DNA of 64,000 nucleotides from [Flexibacter] sp. ATCC 35208 (GTDB lineage Bacteria; Bacteroidota; Bacteroidia; Chitinophagales; Chitinophagaceae). Numbering within the stretch: position 1 is the first letter of the stretch; every line of letters begins with the position of its first letter. The position numbers and the translations under genes were made by a program. The stretch lies in the NCBI RefSeq assembly GCF_001975825.1, contig NZ_MTKN01000041.1, positions 1-64,000 on the forward strand, given 5' to 3'. Of this stretch, positions 22,611 through 42,991 are shown piece by piece. Under the pieces are notes generated by a model. The model made no database searches, had not been told where the DNA came from, and worked only from the letters and a program-made list of their open reading frames with translations.

Positions 22611-25600
22611 ATGCACCTGATCCCAACAATCCCCGGTGGGTGGAATCCCAACGGGGATGGGGTCTTCCACATACAGCAATCAATAGGAGACGTCGTATTC
22701 CTCTCTGCTGCCGATACGGAGATCCATTCACTGAGCAATGCTTATAGGGAGTTACACCAAACCCACACACAGCTCCCGTCCCTGCGAATTGCCAACCTGG
22801 TATACCTGAAGCAGGAACTGACCATCGATAAATATGTAGAGGAGGTGATCAGCCATGCAAAGCTGGTGATCTGTCGCCTGTTAGGTGGCAGGAATTACTA
22901 CCCGTATTTGTTTGAAGCTATCAGCATTGCCTGTGAACAGCAAAGTATTCCCGTACTCTTCCTGCCGGGTTATGACGCGCCGGATGTAGAATTGCTGAAT
23001 AGTTCCACTGTGGATGTGAAGATTGCTGATACCTTATGGAAATACTGTTGTGCCGGTGGAAAGCATAACCTGAAGAATGGGTTGGCTTATATATTTCATC
23101 ATTGCTTTAATAAAGATTTACAATTCGCACCTCCTCAAAAAATTGCGGATCTGTTTTTATTTCATCCGGAGAAGGGAATGATCCCGCCGGGGGATTATAT
23201 AGCAGATGTAGCCATCCTTGTTTACCAAACGCATTATCTGGCGGATAATCTGGCGCCGGTGTATTATTTAATAAAGGCGTTGGCGGTTAAAGGGCTGAAG
23301 CCTGTGATTGCTTTTGTGAGCAATCTTCGTGATCAGCATAGTTTACAGGAACTTGAATCTTTATTGAAAGGAAAGGTAAAAGTGTTGATCAACACGACCA
23401 GCTTTTCAATTAAATCTTTGGATAAGGATGAAAGTTTCTTATTTGATAATCTTGATGTACCTGTTATACAGGGCATCTTTGCTGCCTGTACAAAAGAGGT
23501 ATGGGAGCAGAATCTATTTGGTCTGACACCAGTAGATGTGGCGATGAATATTGCATTGCCGGAGATAGATGGTCGCATTATTACGACGGCTATTTCTTTT
23601 AAATCTTCTATGGGCAAGGACGTGTTGACGGATTCAGATATTCTGCAATATAGTACGCATGAGGAAGGGTGTGATTTTGTGGTGGCTTTTGCAAATAATT
23701 GGATACAGCTTGGTAAGAAGGAACAAAAAGATAAACATATTGCCCTTATTATGCCGAACTATCCAAATAAGGATAGTCGTTTGGCAAATGGGGTAGGATT
23801 AGATACACCTGCGAGTATTGTGGAGATCCTGCATGCGTTGAAAACAGCAGGGTATGATACGGGAGATTATATTCCTGCTAACAGCGGGGAGTTGATCGGG
23901 CTGATCACGCATTATGTTACGAATGATACGGATACTACGCTTTATCGTCCTTATCAGATTAGTATAGACAAGGATCGGTTTCAGGAATATTTTGAGCAGT
24001 TATCACCATTGCTTAAAGAGAAGATCCTTCAGCAATGGGGGCCTTCACAGGAAGAGGATTTTATTATTCCCGGGTGTTTGTTGGGGAATGTCTTCGTGAG
24101 TATTCAGCCTGCGCGCGGTTATAATCAGGATGAGAAGGCTATTTACCACTCGCCTGATTTACCGCCTACTTATAGATACCTTGCTTATTACTGTTGGGTG
24201 AATGAGGTGTTCAAAGCAGATGCTTTGATTCATTGTGGTAAGCATGGAAACCTGGAATGGTTGCCGGGAAAGAGTGTGGCATTGAGCAAGGAGAGTTGTT
24301 TCCCGGCTGTATTGTTAAGTCCTGTTCCGCATTTCTATCCGTTCATAGTGAATGATCCGGGGGAAGGAACGCAGGCAAAGCGCAGGACACATGCTATTAT
24401 TATAGATCACCTGATTCCGCCCATGACGAGAGCGGAGAATTATGGTACGTTGACTAAGCTGGAACATTTGATTGATGAATATTATGAAGCGTTTAGTGTG
24501 GATCCGAAGCGTACGGCGGTGATTCGTGCGCAGATCACACAGTTGGTGAAGGAGGCGGATCTGGAAACAGATCTGCAGGCAGCGGTTTCTGATATGGATA
24601 CGTTGTTGTTGAAGCTGGATGGGTATTTGTGTGAATTGAAAGAGGCGCAGATCCGGGATGGATTGCATATTTTGGGGAAGGCACCAGTGGATGAGCAGCT
24701 GATTGATTTGCTGATAGCATTGCATAGGGTGCCTGTGGCGGGGCAGAAGGGGATTACGCAGGTGCCGGCTGAGGAGATGGGGTTAGGATTTGATCCTTTG
24801 GGAGGGGATTATGAGATGGCTTTTAAAAGTGAGCATTTGTTGTTTAGGGGGTGTAGGAACAGGGGGGATGCAGTGGAGGTGTTGGAGGGGGTTGTGAAAG
24901 AGATGCTGAAGGGTATGGGGATGTTGGATGGGGAAGGTCTTTTGAAAGGTGAGAGGATGCTGAGTGGTCATCATATCCTGCAAGGCGAAGACTTCCATCT
25001 TCCAGCGACCAAAGCTTATTGTCACAATATCCTTACTCATACTTTACCAAAGATTCAACGTACTACGGAGGAAATCACCAACCTCTTACACGGTTTAGAC
25101 GCTGGTTATGTTCCCAGTGGTAGCTCCGGCGCACCTACACGTGGTCGTATGGATGTATTGCCAACAGGAAGAAATTTCTATTCTGTAGATGTCCGGGCTA
25201 TACCCACACAGGCCGCTTACACACTGGGGGTAAAAAGCGCGAACCTTATCATCAGTCGTTATATGCAGGAGCAGGGGGATTATCCTGAATCTATAGGGCT
25301 TTCTGTATGGGGTACCAGTACCATGCGTACAGGTGGAGATGACATTGCACAGGCACTGGCTCTTATGGGGGTACAACCCGTATGGCAGGCGGCTAACAGG
25401 CGGGTGTCTGATTTTGAGATCATTCCGCTTATTCAATTGAGAAGGCCACGTATCGATGTCATGCTACGTATTTCAGGGTTTTTCAGGGATGCATTTCCGG
25501 ATGTGATCTCATTGTTGAATGCAGTGGTAGAAAAGGTGGCTTTACTGGATGAACCGTTGGAACAGAATCCTATCCGCAAACGCTATCTCGCTGAAAAGCA

Positions 25601-26354
25601 GGAATGGCTCAATAAGGGATTGGATGAAACCAAGGCACATAAAAGATCTCTTTTCAGGGTTTTTGGTTCGAAGCCAGGTGCTTATGGCGCAGGGTTGCAG
25701 GCAGTGATAGATGAAAAGAACTGGCAGACGAGGGAAGACCTTGCTAAAATTTATATCAATTGGAGTGGGTATGCTTATGGTGCTGACCGCACAGGTGAAT
25801 CTGCGCATGAGGTATTTGAAAAGCGTTTATCTGATCTGCAAATCGTGATGCATAATCAGGATAACAGGGAGCATGATATTCTCGATTCGGATGATTATTA
25901 CCAGTTCCAGGGAGGCTTAGCAAATGCGGTGGAAACTATCAAAGGAGAGCAACCTTCTATTTATTTTGGAGACCATGCACGTCCGGATTCGCCGCGTATA
26001 AAGAGTTTAAAAGAAGAGTTGCTGAAAGTATATCGTTCAAGGGTGGTGAATCCGAAGTGGATTGCTGGTGTGAAGCGACATGGTTATAAGGGGGCATTTG
26101 AGATGGCAGCTACTATGGATTATCTCTTTGCTTATGATGCGACGACTAATATGGTAGATGATTTTATGTATGAAGGGATTACCCAGGAATACCTGTTCAA
26201 TGAAGAGAATCGTCAGTTCATCGAACAGGCAAATCCGTGGGCTTTGAAGGATATGACAGAACGTATGTTGGAAGCTATTCAACGGGGAATGTGGCAGGCG
26301 CCAAAACCGGAGACGCTGGAAAAGCTGCAAAGTATATTTGTGGATATGGAGTAG
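22611..26354 (+). CDS. cobN: Cobaltochelatase large subunit CobN
   Basis: A 1247-residue protein of normal CobN/ChlH length, recognised by blocks such as GCLLGNVFVSIQPARGY, CGKHGNLEWLPGKS, PTGRNFYSVD and DRTGESAHEVFEKRL. It is the porphyrin/corrin-binding subunit of the ATP-driven chelatase, which inserts cobalt into hydrogenobyrinate a,c-diamide with AAA+ partners. The partners are likely the ChlI/ChlD-type proteins encoded at 30.2-31.8 kb on the other strand. A single base separates it from cobW. Composition is mosaic: the stretch up to about 24.97 kb is very C-poor (row 24841-24900: 32 G, 2 C) and then turns C-rich (row 25021-25080: 7 G, 16 C) within the gene. Confidence 0.95.
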   Translation: MHLIPTIPGGWNPNGDGVFHIQQSIGDVVFLSAADTEIHSLSNAYRELHQTHTQLPSLRIANLVYLKQELTIDKYVEEVISHAKLVICRLLGGRNYYPYLFEAISIACEQQSIPVLFLPGYDAPDVELLNSSTVDVKIADTLWKYCCAGGKHNLKNGLAYIFHHCFNKDLQFAPPQKIADLFLFHPEKGMIPPGDYIADVAILVYQTHYLADNLAPVYYLIKALAVKGLKPVIAFVSNLRDQHSLQELESLLKGKVKVLINTTSFSIKSLDKDESFLFDNLDVPVIQGIFAACTKEVWEQNLFGLTPVDVAMNIALPEIDGRIITTAISFKSSMGKDVLTDSDILQYSTHEEGCDFVVAFANNWIQLGKKEQKDKHIALIMPNYPNKDSRLANGVGLDTPASIVEILHALKTAGYDTGDYIPANSGELIGLITHYVTNDTDTTLYRPYQISIDKDRFQEYFEQLSPLLKEKILQQWGPSQEEDFIIPGCLLGNVFVSIQPARGYNQDEKAIYHSPDLPPTYRYLAYYCWVNEVFKADALIHCGKHGNLEWLPGKSVALSKESCFPAVLLSPVPHFYPFIVNDPGEGTQAKRRTHAIIIDHLIPPMTRAENYGTLTKLEHLIDEYYEAFSVDPKRTAVIRAQITQLVKEADLETDLQAAVSDMDTLLLKLDGYLCELKEAQIRDGLHILGKAPVDEQLIDLLIALHRVPVAGQKGITQVPAEEMGLGFDPLGGDYEMAFKSEHLLFRGCRNRGDAVEVLEGVVKEMLKGMGMLDGEGLLKGERMLSGHHILQGEDFHLPATKAYCHNILTHTLPKIQRTTEEITNLLHGLDAGYVPSGSSGAPTRGRMDVLPTGRNFYSVDVRAIPTQAAYTLGVKSANLIISRYMQEQGDYPESIGLSVWGTSTMRTGGDDIAQALALMGVQPVWQAANRRVSDFEIIPLIQLRRPRIDVMLRISGFFRDAFPDVISLLNAVVEKVALLDEPLEQNPIRKRYLAEKQEWLNKGLDETKAHKRSLFRVFGSKPGAYGAGLQAVIDEKNWQTREDLAKIYINWSGYAYGADRTGESAHEVFEKRLSDLQIVMHNQDNREHDILDSDDYYQFQGGLANAVETIKGEQPSIYFGDHARPDSPRIKSLKEELLKVYRSRVVNPKWIAGVKRHGYKGAFEMAATMDYLFAYDATTNMVDDFMYEGITQEYLFNEENRQFIEQANPWALKDMTERMLEAIQRGMWQAPKPETLEKLQSIFVDME

Positions 26355-29380: not shown

Positions 29381-29576
29381 GTCTGATTAATTATAATGGG
29401 TAGTTCTGATATTGTCAGGGTTGCCTTGGCAGTTTTATTACTAAGGTGGTGGTTCTGATATTATCAGGTTTTCCTTGTCTGTTCTGTTATTGAGGTGGTA
29501 GTTCTGATATTATCAGGGTTGGCTTGACAGTTTTGTTACTGTGAAGGTGGTTCTGATATTATCAGGGTTGCCAGTT
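29377..29576 (-). repeat. Four stop-terminated copies of the cobU 3' end between cobU and cobT
   Basis: Units of about 45-50 bases share the core GGTGGTTCTGATATTATCAGGGTTG (plus strand; core given as seen in part) and start near 29385, 29432, 29482 and 29534. On the minus strand they read KATLTISELPII, KENLIISEPPP, KPTLIISELPPQ and LATLIISEPPSQ, each with a stop, against KATLMVSGLPITVK in cobU. The unit nearest cobT ends in TGA that overlaps the cobT ATG. There are no spacers, so it is not a CRISPR. Confidence 0.88.
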
Positions 29577-30080
29577 TTATTTAACTGTAATAGGTAGTCC
29601 TGATACCATCAGAGTTGCCTTATCCGCTTTTTGTGCGATATATTGATTCATCCATCCCTGCAGGTCAACGAACTTCCTGCCGATTTCAGTCTCTGCGTGA
29701 ACGCCCATACCGATTTCGTTGGATATGATGATGAGATTAAATTCCTGTGCAGCAAATAGGTCAAATTCTGCTTTGGCCTCTCTTAGTGCGATGTCTATGT
29801 TATAATGTGCATCGGTGAAGAAGTTGGTCAGCCACAGGGTGACGCAGTCAAAAACCACGGTTCTGTTGGGCAGTGATAGTTTACTTACTTCTTTTTCTTC
29901 TTCTATATTTTCCCATTGATGATCCCGTTCCTGTTTATGCAGCTCAATCCTTGCCTGGTGTTCTGTATCCCAGATGCGGCTGGTGGCCAGGTAAACAGGG
30001 TTTGGGGACAGCTGCGAGGCAGTCTGCATAGCAAATTTTGTTTTGCCGGACCTTTGTCCGCCAGAAATGTAATGGATCAT
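29577..30080 (-). CDS. cobU: Adenosylcobinamide kinase / guanylyltransferase
   Basis: A 167-residue bifunctional enzyme that phosphorylates adenosylcobinamide and transfers GMP to it. The P-loop GGQRSGKTKFA is at residues 7-17, the His-containing region LHKQERDHQW near 48-57 carries the guanylylated His, and VFDCVTLWLTNFF lies near 75-87. Length is normal. It begins 3 bases after a duplicate copy of the chlD tail, and its own tail is repeated four times downstream. Confidence 0.94.
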   Translation of the reverse strand: MIHYISGGQRSGKTKFAMQTASQLSPNPVYLATSRIWDTEHQARIELHKQERDHQWENIEEEKEVSKLSLPNRTVVFDCVTLWLTNFFTDAHYNIDIALREAKAEFDLFAAQEFNLIIISNEIGMGVHAETEIGRKFVDLQGWMNQYIAQKADKATLMVSGLPITVK

Positions 30081-30220
30081 CTGTTATAAGTTTAAGTAAG
30101 TAGTACTGATACCTTTTGCCAGTTCATGCATTCTGCCAGTTTGAAAATGGACCACTTCTTATAAGTTTAAGTAAGTAGCACCGATACCTTTTGCCAGTTC
30201 AGCAGCCTTACCCAGTTTCA
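30071..30220 (-). repeat. 75-base tandem duplication across the chlD-cobU junction
   Basis: Blocks 30071-30145 and 30146-30220 align over their length, with near identity in TTATAAGTTTAAGTAAGTAG and CCTTTTGCCAGTTCA. The block next to chlD is its coding tail (ELAKGIGATYLNL, stop). The second, in the same frame after the stop, reads ELAKGISTTYLNL, stop, and sits 3 bases before the cobU ATG. The unit equals 25 codons. Confidence 0.88.
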
Positions 30221-30857
30221 CAAAACCGCTTTCAATATTGACAACAGTGGTTGCCGATAAAGTCCGGAGGTGTTGTTTGAAATACAGGGCCGATTCCTGC
30301 AAACTTCCGCCGGTATTGATCTTTCCATCTGTGAAGATGTAAAGTTGTGTCTTATCGGATGTTTTCATTTGTTGTATTAGTTGTAACCCTGCTTTCAGAT
30401 TGGTTTTGCCGCCTGACCGTAATTGGGCGATACTTTCGATAAAACTGGTCGTGTCTGTTGTATAATGTGATACCAGTTGTGCATCGCCCTGTGTAAGGGC
30501 TACTGCGCCATATCGCAGCCGTTTGTGTTGATGCTGCGCAATGGTTTGAGCAATGACTCCTTTGATATAAGCGATCTGCCTGTCTTTGATCATGGAGCCG
30601 CTGCTGTCAATCAAAAATAGCAAGGACAGGGCGGCTTTGGAAGCTTTACGCTGGTATATTATTTCAGGTTGGCCAGTGAGTAAGTAATTTTTCACTGTGC
30701 CTAGCAGATCGCGTGTTCGATGATCATTGCCGATGACCGGAGTGGACATTACAGGCATTGGCAGGCCTCTTTTACGGCCTTTCGGACCGCTTTTGAGGTT
30801 CAACCTCTTTTCAGTGCCAGCTGCCTGTAAAAGGTAATTATTTAAATCGTTCTGACC
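30159..30857 (-). CDS. chlD: ChlD/CobT-like VWA chelatase subunit, reached by a -1 frameshift from chlI
   Basis: The frame holds the C-terminal half of a ChlD-type chelatase subunit. A basic SGPKGRKRG segment is followed by a VWA domain with the MIDAS motif FLIDSSGSM near the middle and YIFTDGKINTGG later. It has no good start codon of its own: the first candidate is a TTG at 30803, and the open frame reaches back over the chlI end to a TGA at about 30868. A -1 slip at 30857-30862 would join it to the chlI frame and give a product of about 535 residues (303 + 232). The product would partner CobN. Whether it can also start independently at TTG is open. Confidence 0.8.
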   Translation of the reverse strand, partial: GQNDLNNYLLQAAGTEKRLNLKSGPKGRKRGLPMPVMSTPVIGNDHRTRDLLGTVKNYLLTGQPEIIYQRKASKAALSLLFLIDSSGSMIKDRQIAYIKGVIAQTIAQHQHKRLRYGAVALTQGDAQLVSHYTTDTTSFIESIAQLRSGGKTNLKAGLQLIQQMKTSDKTQLYIFTDGKINTGGSLQESALYFKQHLRTLSATTVVNIESGFVKLGKAAELAKGIGATYLNL

Positions 30858-31765
30858 TTTTTCGGCTCACCCTCCTTATCGCCCGAAGGCTTACTTTCGC
30901 GGGAAGAGCTTTGAGAGGGCGGTGTTTGACGTGAACGATGGGAGAGGACAAAGTTTTGTACTACACGCACATCATCTTCTCTTATTGTATTTTGTCCATG
31001 AAACGCGGCATGTGCCCTGGCTGCTTTCATCAATAATATATCTGCACGCATCCCTTCCACCTGGTGCTGGATACAAAGGTCAGTTACTACATCATAGATC
31101 TTTGTTGGAATCGCAACAGCGGGTAAAAAATTCTGAGCGGCTACGATCTGCGCTTCAAGCATCTTTTCATGTTCACAATATTCTTTAACAAACTTTGCTG
31201 CGTCTGTATCAAAAGCTACCCTGCGTTGTACAATTTCCATGCGCAATGCTTTATCTGTAGGTGTACTGATATGTACACTCAGTCCAAACCGATCTAACAA
31301 CTGTGGACGAAGATTCCCTTCTTCCGGGTTCATGGTGCCTACCAGGCAAAAGCGGCTTTCCATCCACTGAGAGATGGTATCTCTTTCCAGATAATAGCCA
31401 CCGCTTGCCGCAGCATCCAGTAATACATCCATGAGATAATCACTCAGGAGGTTCACTTCGTCTATATAGAGTATTCCATGATGTGCTGCTGCCAGCAAAC
31501 CGGGTTGTATTTCCAGCCGCTTTTCGTTCAGGAGTACATCCAGTTTTACGGTGCCCAGTACACGATCTTCTGTTGCACCTATTGGCAGGTTTACAAAAGG
31601 AACATCCTGCAGGAGATGGCTTAGCCCTCTTACAGTGGTGGTTTTACCAGTGCCTTTGTCACCCAGTGCGAGTACGCCTCCCAATCCGGGATCGATCATA
31701 CACAGTGTCAGCGCCAGTTTAAAATCTTCCTGTCCGCAGATAGCAGTAAAAGGATACGTGATCAT
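30842..31765 (-). CDS. chlI: ChlI/BchI-type AAA+ chelatase subunit
   Basis: A 307-residue AAA+ ATPase of the magnesium/cobalt chelatase small-subunit type. Walker A is GDKGTGKTT (about 40-48), Walker B is GILYIDEVNLL (about 105), and the sensor loop is CLVGTMNPEEGNLRPQLLDRFG. The end is a Ser/Lys/Glu-rich linker (PSGDKEGEPKKVRTI). The ATG at 31765 overlaps the stop of the upstream transporter gene as ATGA, which favours it over a TTG three codons earlier. With CobN and the VWA part it would form the ATP-dependent cobalt chelatase. Part of the ribosomes probably shift frame near the end to make the longer ChlD form. Confidence 0.92.
   Translation of the reverse strand: MITYPFTAICGQEDFKLALTLCMIDPGLGGVLALGDKGTGKTTTVRGLSHLLQDVPFVNLPIGATEDRVLGTVKLDVLLNEKRLEIQPGLLAAAHHGILYIDEVNLLSDYLMDVLLDAAASGGYYLERDTISQWMESRFCLVGTMNPEEGNLRPQLLDRFGLSVHISTPTDKALRMEIVQRRVAFDTDAAKFVKEYCEHEKMLEAQIVAAQNFLPAVAIPTKIYDVVTDLCIQHQVEGMRADILLMKAARAHAAFHGQNTIREDDVRVVQNFVLSHRSRQTPPSQSSSRESKPSGDKEGEPKKVRTI
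30857..30877 (-). promoter_or_regulatory. Predicted programmed -1 ribosomal frameshift site
   Basis: On the minus strand AAGGAGGG (30877-30870) lies seven bases before GAAAAAG (30863-30857). In the chlI frame the codons are CCG AAA AAG; a -1 slip gives GGT CAG AAC and enters the VWA frame. A Shine-Dalgarno-like stimulator about this far upstream of an A-rich slippery site is the dnaX-type layout. The chlI stop follows five codons later. No strong downstream hairpin is evident. Confidence 0.7.
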
Positions 31766-42492: not shown

Positions 42493-42637
42493 ACCTTTTA
42501 AAACATTTAATGCAGTTAATTACCCGTTAACGATTAAACAAGCAGACAGGAGAAAAAGCGGCAAGAGCAAACGCAGTGTATGTTGTTTGCAATCCCTGTA
42601 CTTTTTTCCCGAAAGCATTGGATAAGTAGTTATAGTT

Positions 42638-42820
42638 TTTGGCAGGTCTTCTGACTTGTTCCACTTTTAACGCCTTCCCGTTCCGGTAGGAACAGTGGCT
42701 TTGCAGATGTTAAAAGCGATTGATGGAACTTACAGCAGCGGGAACTGTTCTGGATTTACACCAGATTCCCTTTTAATTTTATCCGCCTGGGAGGCGTATA
42801 AAAACCATAAACCGGGGTAA
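42638..42820 (-). promoter_or_regulatory. Cobalamin riboswitch controlling the minus-strand operon
   Basis: On the minus strand the conserved parts appear in order: AAAGGGAATC, GGTGTAAATCCAGAACAG, TCCCGCTGCTGTAAG, GCCACTG, CGGGAAGGCG, and the B12 box AGTCAGAAGACCTGCC at 42641-42657. About 150 bases follow before the ferredoxin-like ATG. Adenosylcobalamin binding would be expected to turn off the operon from 42492 to 26496. The mode (termination or translation) is not clear, as no obvious T-run hairpin precedes the start codon. Confidence 0.95.
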
Positions 42821-42991
42821 AAGTAGTAAATAAAATTAACTTTCCGGCAGTTAAGGACAATAAACCCACCTTATGAAGTATAACTATATGGATAGTGAAG
42901 GGAAGAGTGAGCTGGCGGACGATTTAGATTCGTTAGGGGAGGGGATAAAAACTGGTCTTTGATACCAGGTTTCAGAGTTCCGCTTTTATTG
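42821..42991. other. Leader and spacer between cbiB and the riboswitch
   Basis: This stretch should hold the promoter for the riboswitch transcript, but I see no clear TAnnTTTG box on the minus strand. A plus-strand frame of 29 codons (42873-42962, starting MKYNYMDSEGKSE) is present without a ribosome-binding site or known relatives and is not called as a gene. Confidence 0.4.

Follow-up and report, generated by a model that had tools for sequence, protein, structure and literature searches.

A cobaltochelatase gene of Chitinophaga with a conserved −1 frame break and a tentative case for a Shine-Dalgarno-driven forward hop

Frameshift-dependent chlD (fs-chlD) genes, in which one recoded gene serves for the small and the medium subunit of a chelatase, are a known kind. 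The described shift sites are either runs of 7–11 As or AT-rich sequences with downstream structure. The former were found in the three tested cases, and the genes came from six genera, none of them in the Bacteroidota (PMC3711429); the latter were reported in 2022 (PMC9227772). In the text of the 2022 paper, supplements apart, a word search found no mention of Bacteroid- or Chitinophaga (PMC9227772). Here we describe a candidate in a 64,000-nucleotide stretch of [Flexibacter] sp. ATCC 35208 (contig NZ_MTKN01000041.1, positions 1 to 64,000; hereafter the window), a gene made of a ChlI-like frame and a VWA frame. It is best read, as the original prediction had proposed, as an fs-chlD-type gene for the small and medium subunits of cobalt chelatase, and recoding of some kind at the junction of its two frames is very probable. 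By layout it may be filed under fs-chlD, with what appears to be a different shift signal. As the mechanism we tentatively propose a forward hop driven by a Shine-Dalgarno (SD)-like element, to which we give slightly less than an even chance. A study of fs-chlD by Antonov in 2020 reportedly notes that details differ between taxa, and it may already list Bacteroidota. In searches of the literature on Chitinophaga chelatase frameshifting, SD-linked hopping and bypassing take-off, no title or abstract on the present site was found.

The ChlI-like AAA+ frame, whose start was placed by us at the ATG at 31765, presumably provides the small subunit and the N-terminal part of the medium subunit, and it ends with a TAA at 30844–30842 (minus strand; Table 1). 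The VWA frame is in −1 relative to it. The best stretches of the match to TIGR02442 (putative cobaltochelatase) cover model positions 86–333 in the ChlI frame and 465–640 in the VWA frame. On the minus strand, the junction reads in the ChlI frame GAT AAG GAG GGT GAG CCG AAA AAG GTC AGA ACG ATT TAA. The open part of the VWA frame is directly preceded by a TGA (30869–30867), and therefore reading in this frame can begin only at 30866. Its first ATG, GTG or TTG is the TTG at 30803. The original prediction was thus right that the VWA frame lacks a good start codon and overlaps the end of chlI in the −1 frame, and also that an SD-like AAGGAGG stands seven bases before GAAAAAG. A ribosome that stays in the ChlI frame would stop at 30842 and yield a ChlI-type small subunit of 307 amino acids, and one that changes frame would yield a medium subunit of about 533 amino acids with the VWA domain; both may assemble with the product of cobN, which is indeed present in the window, as had been claimed.

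The frame break is conserved in the genus. The gene is held by 26 of its 79 genomes, with VWA matches from 6.2e-144 to 1.5e-32 (the other matches listed were at 2.9e-6 or weaker). In all 26 loci, including those of Chitinophaga silvisoli, C. ginsengisoli, C. filiformis, C. pinensis and C. niastensis, the end of the ChlI frame overlaps the new frame, and in 25 the VWA domain lies plainly in −1. The other one, L020/L083 of Chitinophaga pinensis YS-16, breaks frame again past the junction and ahead of the VWA domain, either truly or through an assembly error. Single-contig assemblies are found among the loci that keep the break, for example L003, of the same species as the window, and the VWA domain is conserved. 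In an alignment of 24 loci, the conserved VWA-side block starts directly after the overlap.

Outside the genus, most of the loci examined have one uninterrupted ChlI-VWA frame. The two parts are fused in 24 of the 43 loci of one set (the other 19 are 17 same-genus loci under other identifiers, one of Xanthovirga and one without the pair), in 24 of the 28 loci of a second set, and in 5 of the 11 of a third, where 5 more lack the pair. No ChlI+VWA pair was found by script in L101, L136, L148, L151–L153, L158 and L160. Broken genes outside the genus are those of Xanthovirga aplysinae (L102/L103, Cytophagales), of L157 (G1544), which was found in a search of Xanthovirga's family, and of L141 (G1379, Cytophagales), found in a search of Xanthovirga's order. 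The genome sets searched overlap, and all are samples. Searches with TIGR02442 gave 26 matches among 291 genomes of Xanthovirga's order and 9 among 118 of its family; 9 matches among 18 genomes of G1379's family and 12 among 146 relatives of G1544 contained no new broken gene. With alignment A1, a search of the family (244 genomes, 1e-15) matched the window alone, and a search of the class (395 genomes, 1e-20) matched the window and G402. In the family of G402 (149 genomes, 1e-20), 10 matches were obtained, and each lies in an open frame of 551–602 amino acids. The phylum search (395 genomes, 1e-15) gave 92 genomes with a match; junctions were viewed in L033 and L034, and 27 fetched loci (L035–L061) were left out of the junction comparison.

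In seven genomes other than that of the window (four of Chitinophaga, two Flavobacteriaceae-family genomes with a fused gene, and Xanthovirga), a single ChlI-type match per genome reaches 7.4e-84 or better, and the next ones are at 1.5e-16 or weaker. In G402 and G464, which have a fused chlD, the one strong ChlI-type match lies inside the fused frame, so that no separate small subunit is evident there. In the family of G402, the linker of the fused frame carries A-runs (10 As in L033, L062 and L063; 9 in L064). A ribosome slipping at these runs would reach a stop 2 to 9 codons later, which could let the fused gene supply a small subunit as well.

The junction was compared in 27 loci: group 1 (19 Chitinophaga loci, L001 and L004–L021), group 2 (six loci, L022–L027), L103 and L157. 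L003, with the junction of L001 and 100% identical proteins, and L002 and L028–L031, VWA proteins of another kind, were omitted from all counts; L020 was kept in the codon counts and left out of alignment A1, and L141 is not among the 27. In the ChlI part of group 1, 44 columns have an invariant two-fold amino acid, and just 3 of them have one fixed codon. The adjacent AAG and GAG of AAGGAGG are two of these three (19/19 loci). Judged by these columns, the conservation of AAGGAGG exceeds chance. At the same register, 21 of the 27 loci have AAGGAG and 6 have GGGGAR.

The A-run behaves differently. AAA AAG is found at the junction only in L001/L003, L004 and L006; L005, a near relative, has AAA AGG in the same layout, and the other loci have ATA AGG, AAA AGC, ATA CGA and others. 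In L141, the junction is GAA AAA AAA AAG, an A10 run with no SD-like element, which is the classic kind of site for an A-run slip. When 70 nucleotides of each of the 27 loci were folded and compared with 60 dinucleotide shuffles, no shared downstream hairpin emerged: L011 (−2.15) and L025 (−5.76) are the only loci with z under −2, and the window has −1.08. The original prediction had compared the site with dnaX-type −1 frameshifting. In the window species, an SD-like element does stand upstream of an A-run ending in AAG, as in that system (PMC3711429), and the element is kept in relatives. However, the window heptamer is G_AAA_AAG, with five As, and not A_AAA_AAG, the SD-like element is nearer than 9–14 nucleotides, and neither the A-run nor a 3′ hairpin is conserved. 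A slip on a conserved A-run is therefore rejected as the shared mechanism, since the run is lost in L005 and absent in most relatives. The comparison with fs-chlD comes out likewise. The locus resembles these genes in the ChlI-like and VWA parts in overlapping frames, their −1 relation, the presence of cobN and the fused orthologues elsewhere, but it has five non-conserved As in place of the described sites, a conserved SD-like element and matched codons instead, and no A_AAA_AAR.

These matched codons are located just downstream of the element. In 26 of the 27 loci, two of these in distant Cytophagales, the 0-frame codon beginning 3 nucleotides after GGAR has a downstream codon for the same tRNA in the VWA frame, at +5 or +2, the same tRNA being assigned by the NNY/NNR rule alone. 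In 18 of the 19 loci of group 1, the partner stands at +5, as Glu/Glu (GAG CC GAA, GAG AC GAA) or Asp/Asp (GAC TC GAT, GAT TC GAT, GAT AC GAT). In group 2, L103 and L157, it stands at +2 in CAC AC (8/8), and in L103 this is the only same-tRNA shift within offsets −7 to +14. Steps of +2 and +5 both lead to the −1 frame. Of 310 aligned codon columns, each with 20 rows or more, the proposed take-off column ranks first for a +2/+5 partner; the mean is 5.6%, and the runner-up reaches 21/27. L157, which was met after the hop idea had been noted and when L102/L103 were already known, fits with AAGGAG AGC CAC ACG. In L001, L006, L011 and L016, a −1-frame TGA directly precedes the open part of the new frame, so that the shift must land past it. 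The codon after take-off is NCG in 27/27 loci, though the amino acid varies among Thr, Ser and Pro. In programmed bypassing of the T4 gene 60 kind, a stop or a slow codon follows take-off; in the window genes, TCG makes up 8% of Ser codons and ACG 19% of Thr codons, but CCG is the commonest Pro codon (32%).

From these features, the following course of events is proposed. When GAG is in the P site, the upstream AAGGAGG would pair with the tail of 16S rRNA at too short a distance. This pairing would loosen the peptidyl-tRNA and push it forward, and the tRNA would re-pair with GAA five bases on, with AAA as the next codon to be read, now in the −1 frame. The relatives with CAC AC would use a similar element for a hop of +2. 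It is quite possible, if just short of an even bet, that hops of +5 (GAN NC GAN) and +2 (CACAC), with the SD-like element 2–3 nucleotides upstream of take-off, reach the −1 frame in a conserved cellular gene of the Bacteroidota. AGGAGG ends 2 nucleotides before GAG and 8 before the AAA of the supposed slip. Since a 2016 review gives an SD-to-shift-site distance of 3 nucleotides for +1 and 9–14 for −1 shifting (PMC5009743), this spacing resembles forward shifting.

A parallel in geometry is the +1 shift of prfB, in which an SD-like element also stands just before the P-site codon in a forward arrangement (PMC8710568). The spacing is of the prfB type, with 2 nucleotides from AGGAGG to GAG in the window and the take-off codon 3 nucleotides after GGAR in 27/27 loci. 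However, the present loci lack both CUU U and a stop codon where the shift would occur, and the step is +5 or +2 rather than +1. Among bypassing systems, Streptomyces phage Hau3 has a proposed short bypass with an SD 5′ of a short gap (PMC5009743). The site differs from that of phage T4 gene 60 in its gap (2 nucleotides or overlapping codons here, 50 nucleotides in T4), in that take-off is followed by the sense codon NCG and not by a stop, and in belonging to a cellular gene. Matched-codon hops of similar size in E. coli constructs were reportedly obtained by Weiss and colleagues in 1987.

Several observations weigh against the hop. L014 is the sole misfit among the 27 loci, with GAG TC GAT, not a same-tRNA pair, and L141, also met after the hop idea, misfits with its A-run and lack of the element. 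Group 2 carries GGGGAR, a weaker element. When partners at +8, +11 and +14 are allowed in addition, the runner-up column reaches 24/27, and the window species itself has further same-tRNA shifts (AAA +2, AAG −1, GAG +11, GGT +14). Several codons and offsets were scanned before the present choice, and the evidence, which is comparative, is in part post hoc. Covariation of the codons was considered as strong proof and rejected: in the ChlI tree, the Asp clade (12 rows, L014 included) does not contain the Glu/Glu forms, so that the tree needs the paired change a single time and, in L014, an unpaired one.

A further objection comes from the ribosome. Bacteroidia ribosomes hide the anti-SD at initiation and are reported to be SD-blind, yet the SD-dependent shift of prfB is kept in 523 of 726 genomes (PMC8710568). 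The hidden anti-SD speaks against an SD-driven hop. So does our search for the usual +1 shift site, AGGRGGTATCTTTGAC, with at most one mismatch in 28 genomes (25 of Chitinophaga and three of Cytophagales; the same-species G053 was left out). It was not found in prfB of the 25 Chitinophaga genomes, and it is exact only in the three Cytophagales, where translation places it in prfB (L168–L170). In 7 of the 25 Chitinophaga genomes there are one-mismatch matches, none of which reads as prfB, and a reversed control pattern also matched in G016, G017, G021, G1175 and G1379. The prfB result cuts both ways: the chlD element may be separate evidence of SD use in elongation by ribosomes of this genus, or it may serve something else.

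Beside the forward hop, an ordinary −1 slip in the window species has to be considered, in which tRNA-Lys would move from AAG to AAA at G_AAA_AAG with AAGGAGG as stimulator, other species using other signals. We regard it as rather unlikely. The site is present in the window, no tetramer is more prone to slipping in E. coli than A_AAG (PMC4066793), and A-runs are used by known fs-chlD genes (PMC3711429) and provided by L141. However, this slip would have to do without AAA AAG in all but the few loci named above, with L005 keeping the layout around AAA AGG, with an SD spacing of 8 nucleotides to AAA that is short for −1, and with no conserved 3′ structure, and the P-site AAA would shift to GAA with a first-base mismatch.

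That no recoding takes place, and that a separate VWA protein is made by re-initiation or coupling, is improbable. AAGGAGG resembles a ribosome-binding site, and in 5 of the 25 Chitinophaga loci a TTG precedes the conserved YLLQA block. However, the other 20 have no ATG, GTG or TTG from the element up to that block, which makes an internal VWA start unlikely, and the first such codon of L012 sits 7 amino acids before the DSSGSM of the VWA domain. The start of the conserved block right past the overlap, the existence of fused orthologues and the reported lack of SD use for most starts in Bacteroidia (PMC8710568) stand against it as well.

A −1 slip at the element's own first codon (A_AAG or G_GGG) is very improbable: it has a same-tRNA −1 partner in 20 of the 27 loci, the best column for −1, but no partner in L001, L004, L005, L006, L026, L027 and L103, and the new frame meets TGA at once in L011 and L016. 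It is thus ruled out in at least 9 of the 27 loci, among them the window (T_AAG; TGA at 30869–30867). A sequencing error or a decayed gene, which the original prediction had named among its refuting cases and for which the fused frames of other families and the second break inside VWA in L020 might be cited, is hardly credible and is rejected, because all 26 loci of the genus share the break, single-contig assemblies included, with a conserved VWA domain.

The gene lies in a cobalamin cluster. Around it are cobN and the genes of CobW, an adenosyltransferase, CobS, DBI_PRT, CobU, CbiD, CbiJ, CbiG with a methylase, and a methylase with CbiC. Between the cobT-like DBI_PRT and cobU genes, three overlapping 76-nucleotide copies with 49-nucleotide spacing, 82–100% alike, are found at 29399–29572. 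A 56-nucleotide duplication (30071–30126 and 30146–30201, 89% alike) takes in the last part of the VWA frame and the first part of the cobU-like gene.

Table 1. Features of the chelatase locus and its surroundings in the window.
Feature	Position	Strand	Evidence or remark
ChlI-like AAA+ frame (0-frame), 307 amino acids	30842..31765	minus	TIGR02442 E-value 7.6e-114; Pfam AAA_5, AAA_lid_2, Mg_chelatase
VWA frame, in −1 to the ChlI frame; presumed to supply the medium subunit's C-terminal part	30159..30866	minus	Pfam VWA_2 E-value 2.6e-11; TIGR02442 positions 465–640; aligned in 24 loci
AAGGAGG, SD-like element inside the ChlI frame	30871..30877	minus	AAG GAG invariant in 19/19 group 1 loci
GAG, proposed take-off codon, 2 nucleotides past AGGAGG	30866..30868	minus	same-tRNA partner at +5; candidate hop
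GAA, VWA-frame codon proposed for landing	30861..30863	minus	candidate; reading would resume at AAA 30860–30858
G_AAA_AAG, site of the alternative −1 slip	30857..30863	minus	AAA AAG kept only in L001/L003, L004, L006
cobN, large cobalt-chelatase subunit	22611..26354	plus	TIGR02257 1511.8 bits (cut-off 822.05)
Cobalamin riboswitch	42624..42824	minus	115.8 bits

To our knowledge, a conserved matched-codon hop in a cellular bacterial gene would be new. Matched-codon hops are known from phage T4 gene 60, yeast mitochondria and synthetic constructs (PMC5009743). Frameshift finders that require slippery heptamers could miss sites of the present kind. If the hop is true, the gene would offer a small natural system for testing how an SD-anti-SD helix displaces a tRNA, here by two or five bases. 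It would also bear on the use of SD sequences in elongation by Bacteroidia ribosomes, which are reported to be SD-blind at initiation (PMC8710568): as their anti-SD is thought to be hidden at that step, the elongating ribosome would have to expose it.
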